DNA of 45,135 nt from Opitutia bacterium (GTDB taxonomy: Bacteria > Verrucomicrobiota > Verrucomicrobiia > Opitutales > Opitutaceae), in contig CANHAH010000007.1 in NCBI GenBank assembly GCA_947458705.1, positions 1 through 45,135 of the forward strand, read 5' to 3'. Numbering within the stretch: position 1 is the first letter of the stretch; each line of letters starts with the position of its first letter. Positions 316 to 32,510 of the stretch are shown here, piece by piece. The notes beneath the pieces were generated by a model. The model made no database searches. It worked only from the letters and a program-made list of their open reading frames with translations, and had not been told where the DNA came from. Made by a program: the position numbers and the translations under genes.

Positions 316-368
316 TTTATCTCAGTAGACGGCGCGAAAACCCGGCCCTTTAGGGCCGGGAGGAGGTC
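316..368 (+). repeat. 53-bp dispersed element, copy 1, resembling IS200/IS605-IS1341 right end / omegaRNA-like hairpin
   Basis: TTTATCTCAGTAGACGGCGCGAAAACCCGGCCCTTTAGGGCCGGGAGGAGGTC; perfect 8-bp stem CCCGGCCC-TTTA-GGGCCGGG; 49/53 identical to the reverse complement of 32458-32510. Confidence 0.85.
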
Positions 369-379
369 AAGGAGGCGCC

Positions 380-32348: not shown

Positions 32349-32457
32349 TACTAATGTGGTTTGTGCGCTGCGCCAATTTTTAGGGCGGTGATTTTTCGGG
32401 GCCAAAGGAACAGCGCATAGGTTTCTCTGCGTGGAATTGCTGCTCGTTGGCTTAATA

Positions 32458-32510
32458 GACATCCTCCCGGCACTAAAGGAGCGGGTTTTCGCGCCGTCTA
32501 CTGAGATAAA
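32458..32510 (-). repeat. 53-bp dispersed element, copy 2, IS200/IS605-like end
   Basis: Reverse complement TTTATCTCAGTAGACGGCGCGAAAACCCGCTCCTTTAGTGCCGGGAGGATGTC; differs from copy 1 at 4 positions; ends 2 bp from the stop codon of the D-aminoacylase gene. Confidence 0.85.

Follow-up and report, generated by a model that had tools for sequence, protein, structure and literature searches.

Two 51-bp repeats in an Opitutaceae genome as probable terminal-only remnants of a collapsed tnpB-only IS200/IS605-family element

The closest described systems come from the haloarchaeon Haloquadratum walsbyi, in which the elements HqIRS46 (22-bp repeat) and ISHwa23 (19-bp repeat, shortened from 1500 bp to 52 bp) have collapsed into terminal-only PATEs (PMC3119063). 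For HqIRS46, two strains have full and collapsed forms at identical sites (PMC3119063). The literature on omegaRNA orphans yielded nothing closer than that report. The same type of scar, already described from salt-loving archaea, is seen here in a bacterial lineage, a freshwater genus of Opitutaceae. The window, i.e., the whole stretch of DNA that was analysed (45,135 nt), is contig C7 of a 2.9 Mb genome in 198 contigs that is ~81% complete.

A 53-mer occurs twice in the window, at 316–368 on the plus strand and at 32458–32510 on the minus strand. The copies are identical at 49 of 53 positions, and both the coordinates and the identity given for the second copy in a first-pass annotation were borne out. 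A search for the 25-base core with ≤3 mismatches hit the window at these two places only, and 100 shuffled versions gave no hit. Once the TTTA target is excluded and the right edge is shifted, the repeat unit is 51 bp long (320–370, plus strand; 32456–32506, minus strand), with its right boundary two bases beyond the 53-mer, at TCAA in copy 1 and TCTA in copy 2. The layout is the same in both copies: TTTA, 51 bp and flank, with the left half of a left end (LE) running through a single hairpin into the right half of a right end (RE). The features are as follows.

316–319, plus strand: TTTA of copy 1, retained insertion target and left cleavage site of the parent; TTTA precedes nearly all aligned LEs and hybrids and is retained in the empty sites of other hybrids.
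320–340, plus strand: left-end half of copy 1 (TCTCAGTAGACGGCGCGAAAA), one mismatch to the LE consensus of the tnpB element.
341–360, plus strand: palindrome of copy 1 common to LE and RE, loop TTTA, stem 341–348/353–360 with 8/8 pairs, DNA fold −11.3 kcal/mol.
361–370, plus strand: right-end half of copy 1 (AGGAGGTCAA), identical to REs adjoining tnpB 3′ ends, its last bases being the TCAA right cleavage site.
32507–32510, minus strand: TTTA of copy 2, retained target, placed by alignment with all other copies.
32456–32506, minus strand: LE/RE hybrid of copy 2, 51 bp, with a damaged stem (32485–32478/32473–32466) and right edge TCTA instead of TCAA; not present in the corresponding interval of three congeners.

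The perfect 8-bp stem with a TTTA loop that had been described for the repeat is thus present in copy 1 but not in copy 2, where the stem (CCCGCTCC-TTTA-GTGCCGGG) is paired at 6/8 positions, G-T counted, and the DNA fold is no better than that of shuffled sequence (z −0.15).

Intact ends of the parent element occur in this genus. The LE consists of TTTA, then TCTCAGYGGACGGCGCGAAAA, a hairpin and ATGAAGCGCC, and is followed by tnpB. In this genome, the LE reads TTTA, TCTCAGYGGACGGCGCGAAAA, hairpin and ATGAAGCGCCGCCC..., and then an ORF, MATILKAFRFALEP..., matching HTH_OrfB_IS605 (TnpB N-terminus). The RE follows the tnpB stop and comprises GGGAAT, the same hairpin as in the LE, and AGGAGGTCAA to the edge. 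Here it reads ...CGCCTGCTTCGCAGGCG...TTAAGGGAAT, hairpin, AGGAGGTCAA and flank, and lies directly 3′ of a TnpB C-terminus that carries a Cas12f1-like TNB domain. LE and RE have in common a 21-mer, CCCGGCCCTTTAGGGCCGGGA, which is a near-terminal palindrome in direct repeat. In the RE, GAAT stands at the hairpin foot and TCAA at the edge. Derivation from an IS200/IS605 TnpB-type element, as first proposed, is upheld by these ends flanking tnpB, and elements with the matching right end do exist (REs next to tnpB 3′ ends). The identification of the repeat as a right end holds for the portion from the hairpin to TCAA, but bases 320–340 are LE sequence. The hairpin foot of the hybrid is the GAAAA of the LE, not the GAAT of the RE, so the right cleavage site stands without its guide. 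The intact LE has an outer stem (GGCGC/GCGCC) and a consensus fold of −19.9 kcal/mol (z −4.2), versus −11.3 kcal/mol (z −1.5) for the hybrid, which lacks that stem.

As the first-pass annotation had observed, no tnpA or tnpB ORF adjoins either copy. Elements of the family lie elsewhere in the genome, with Y1 transposase on C78, C88 and C127, and TnpB on C25, C78 and other contigs. On C88 and C127, a cousin-type LE runs into the Y1 transposase. The complete tnpA and tnpB element on C78 was considered as the parent and rejected because its ends are those of the cousin subfamily, which leaves as parent the tnpB-only type, found in pieces at contig ends. This parent is an IS1341-like element of the IS200/IS605 family, without tnpA. 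The C78 element (L039, G000:C78:4361-8414), with divergent tnpA/tnpB of IS605 type, is a candidate source of transposase acting in trans. No whole intact parental element was found on one contig, and LE and RE are linked only through the shared palindrome and through internal-deletion forms that carry both ends on single contigs (~360, 450, and 520 bp). These forms show that loss of the core is frequent in this family. One further LE of the family (L008, G000:C56:1-1290) leads not into tnpB but into a small antitoxin-like gene of HTH type with a possible partner resembling RelE/HigB. Its left flank is orthologous in L058 (G005) and L061 (G009), i.e., the same site in three genomes, and the locus is perhaps a toxin–antitoxin pair adjoining or carried by an IS605 end.

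We searched the genome with a 65-mer query, which matched 25 places (E below 1e-4). The first-pass annotation had made further copies a test of its reading, and they are present. Aligned matches of this family sort into three classes (LE, RE, and hybrid); four are hybrids, namely both window copies, L003 (C49) and L009 (C198). Matches L022-L025 belong to a different element. They represent a separate repeat, TCAT followed by CTTTGGGAGACGTGGCGGAAACCTGGCCCTTTAGGACCGGG..., also seen in G009 (L080-L084, L087, L088), which terminates an element encoding an IscB-like HNH protein. All 11 copies are flanked by TCAT, complementary to an ATGA start. In about 10 of these 11 the adjoining frame has the look of a genuine N-terminus (signal peptides for the most part, and one HemE-like), and the element seems to lie immediately 5′ of start codons.

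Of the 115 genomes searched (E below 1e-6), those that carry the repeat family are this one, four congeners and a representative of another Opitutaceae genus, with many copies in G009 and G005. Hybrids in the relatives were L046, L059, L068, L070 and L076 in G009, L047 and L064 in G005, and L150 and L156 in G012, the last two orthologous to L076 and L070, respectively. This brings the total to 13 loci at 11 sites in four congeneric genomes, this one counted. When end halves were sorted by script, 11 distinct LE-RE, 21 LE-LE, 23 RE-RE and no RE-LE combinations were obtained. The 11 LE-RE loci correspond to 12 rows (L068 appears twice), and three of the 23 RE-RE are the RE-only mini-elements discussed below; L059 and L156, two further hybrids that are decayed and were missed by the script's ungapped match, were added by eye. 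The retention of LE-RE and absence of the reciprocal RE/LE join among sorted ends in this genome and its relatives is the outcome expected of deletion between direct repeats. Mean stem pairing, out of eight, was 6.2 in hybrids versus 7.6 in LEs and 7.8 in REs, by an ungapped count that is somewhat depressed by indels. No two hybrids were identical in sequence. A hybrid pattern search across the genomes of 84,980 species returned two G009 loci, one G005 locus and a diverged Opitutaceae copy (L129). Match L127 from the same search was rejected as a chance match without a hairpin. Public MAG records with hybrids are those of Opitutus sp. GAS368, Opitutae bacterium, and uncultured Opitutaceae bacterium.

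We consider it probable, at roughly 80%, that each window copy is a terminal-only remnant of a collapsed IS200/IS605-family tnpB-only (IS1341-like) element. The anatomy is chimeric, copies of the hybrid are many, the parent ends occur in the same genome, relatives have empty sites, and the reciprocal join is missing. As in terminal-only PATEs, LE and RE termini of one element type are joined through one near-terminal palindrome; CCCGGCCCTTTAGGGCCGGGA is a direct repeat in LE and RE, both of which stand on one contig in the internal-deletion forms; and the 51 bp are too short for a transposase and come with no target duplication. The full element would have inserted 3′ of TTTA without duplicating its target. 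Its two subterminal palindromes (the 21-bp direct repeat) may then have recombined or mispaired during replication, with loss of tnpB, the omegaRNA region and one palindrome, which would leave the left part of the LE, a single hairpin and the right part of the RE in 51 bp. The anatomy and the analogy with Haloquadratum walsbyi suggest that the deletion occurred in place, and its path probably led through the 21-bp repeat. The hybrid product is presumably inert: the left guide is kept, the right guide GAAT and the outer LE stem are gone, and the hairpins are decaying.

Comparison of orthologous loci, also suggested at first reading, showed copy 2 to be missing in congeners and several other hybrids to have empty sites. 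The L009 site in this genome reads GATTTTA, 52 bp and TTCGAGCC, and four congeners are empty there, reading GATTTTATTT(A/G)GAGCC or nearly so. At L059, and at L003 in G005, relatives are empty with the T-run and A retained; the empty site of L047 is less clean. Read from the empty sites, there is no target duplication at L009 and L019. Copy 2 is missing from the aminotransferase–amidohydrolase interval in G005, G009 and G012. Its empty site is inexact, since ~64 further bp beside it (32392–32455) are also absent from that interval in these three congeners. This segment was tested as a repeat and rejected (single copy in the genome, none in congeners). Five congeners possess the DUF3826 gene that neighbours copy 1 and lack the element; synteny on the far side is lost there, which makes the exact empty site unreadable.

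Alternatively, the 51-bp hybrid could be mobile in its own right, as a mini-element (PATE or MITE) with one hairpin that TnpA moves in trans. Hybrids do stand at unique sites in several genomes with relatives empty there, and the authors of PMC3119063 proposed that the 52-bp form was mobilised, as six strain-specific ISHwa23 insertions were all collapsed. In addition, three RE-only mini-elements consist of the RE alone after TTTA and TC: L019 (G000:C4:15983-16056), L056 (G012:C21:2829-2886), and L123 (G005:C61:3312-3385). They measure 54–70 bp after TTTA, and their three sites, unrelated to one another, share exactly the junction TTTATC/GCTCCCGC, which is easier to explain by one moving mini-element than by three equal deletions. 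The L019 site is empty in three relatives and the L056 site in two. However, the hybrid has neither the right guide nor the outer stem of the LE, its stems are decayed relative to intact ends, and identical hybrid pairs do not occur, so we regard its mobility as unlikely. The shared junction leads us to retain a small chance that collapsed forms move. Continued mobility of both the LE/RE hybrids and the 54–70-bp RE-only units (junction TTTA/TCGCTCCCGC, three sites) through TnpA acting in trans, which would place them with the smallest transposable units of the family, is likewise doubtful; scars able to move would rank with the shortest mobile units known.

We judge it very unlikely that the copies are REP-like or terminator elements selected at gene 3′ ends. 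Each adjoins a stop codon (~10 and ~2 bp off), copy 1 reads on the minus strand as a hairpin followed by TTTT, and IS605 stem loops are reported to be retained at gene 3′ ends in Borrelia (PMC2775950). Such a location is nevertheless expected of tolerated insertions. The terminator scan left copy 1 uncalled and found in copy 2 only a weak 5-pair stem, the main stem being broken, on which grounds the terminator reading was rejected; for copy 1 a terminator role keeps a small probability, but nothing supports it. REP families with TnpA-REP have a high copy number and a GTAG-type foot by the palindrome, whereas this genome holds four hybrids with a GAAAA foot. Both window copies have a GTAG 17 bases 5′ of the stem, a position at which most copies read GTGG or GCGG. 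The low copy number and stem decay disfavour the domesticated REP-like family that had been suggested, the decay pointing to inert scars instead. An independent omegaRNA or guide-RNA locus that would serve TnpB in trans, also suggested initially, has next to no probability: although the right 30 bases are the end of the right-end/omegaRNA region and TnpB genes are present, the region upstream of the RE hairpin in intact elements (...CGCTCCCGCCTGCTTCGCAGGCGGGCTGCTTAAGGGAAT...), including the scaffold with its first GC-rich hairpin, is replaced by LE sequence, an Rfam scan of the window gave no match, and no promoter-like site precedes copy 1 on the plus strand. The LE half likewise ruled out a pure right-end reading.

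End scars of this kind could pass for terminators, REPs or guide-RNA genes. Like REP elements with TnpA-REP, the hybrids have a single short palindrome and a connection to related HuH enzymes, but no GTAG foot directly adjoins their hairpin, copies are few, and no paired arrays were seen (PMC8266576). Free-standing IS605 stem loops on Borrelia plasmids are also without transposase, some at gene 3′ ends, but are left or right ends separately and not LE/RE hybrids (PMC2775950). The PATE-like element of Halanaerobium hydrogeniformans likewise derives from IS605 and consists of ends only, with pieces of LE and RE; since 58 nt of tnpB and a complete RE of 160 nt are retained, it is nearer to our 360–520-bp forms than to the 51-bp hybrids (PMC7290912). 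As in IS608, the palindrome foot of the parent RE carries GAAT as right guide, the right cleavage site is TCAA, and insertion is 3′ of a T-rich tetranucleotide; unlike in IS608, the left target is TTTA, not TTAC, the parent is without tnpA, and the hybrid retains a single palindrome without the right guide (PMC5934647). The terminal-only PATEs of H. walsbyi differ in being archaeal, with other sequence and target, and in offering a full and a collapsed form at one site, where among our genomes only empty or equally collapsed sites were found (PMC3119063). They resemble the hybrids in having IS605-type ends fused via one near-terminal palindrome, a direct repeat of 19–22 bp (21 here), a 52-bp product (51 here), a tnpB-only parent in ISHwa23, no target duplication, and relatives with empty sites (PMC3119063). 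The collapse of IS200/IS605 elements to end scars of ~51 bp, known from a haloarchaeon, extends to a bacterial lineage.
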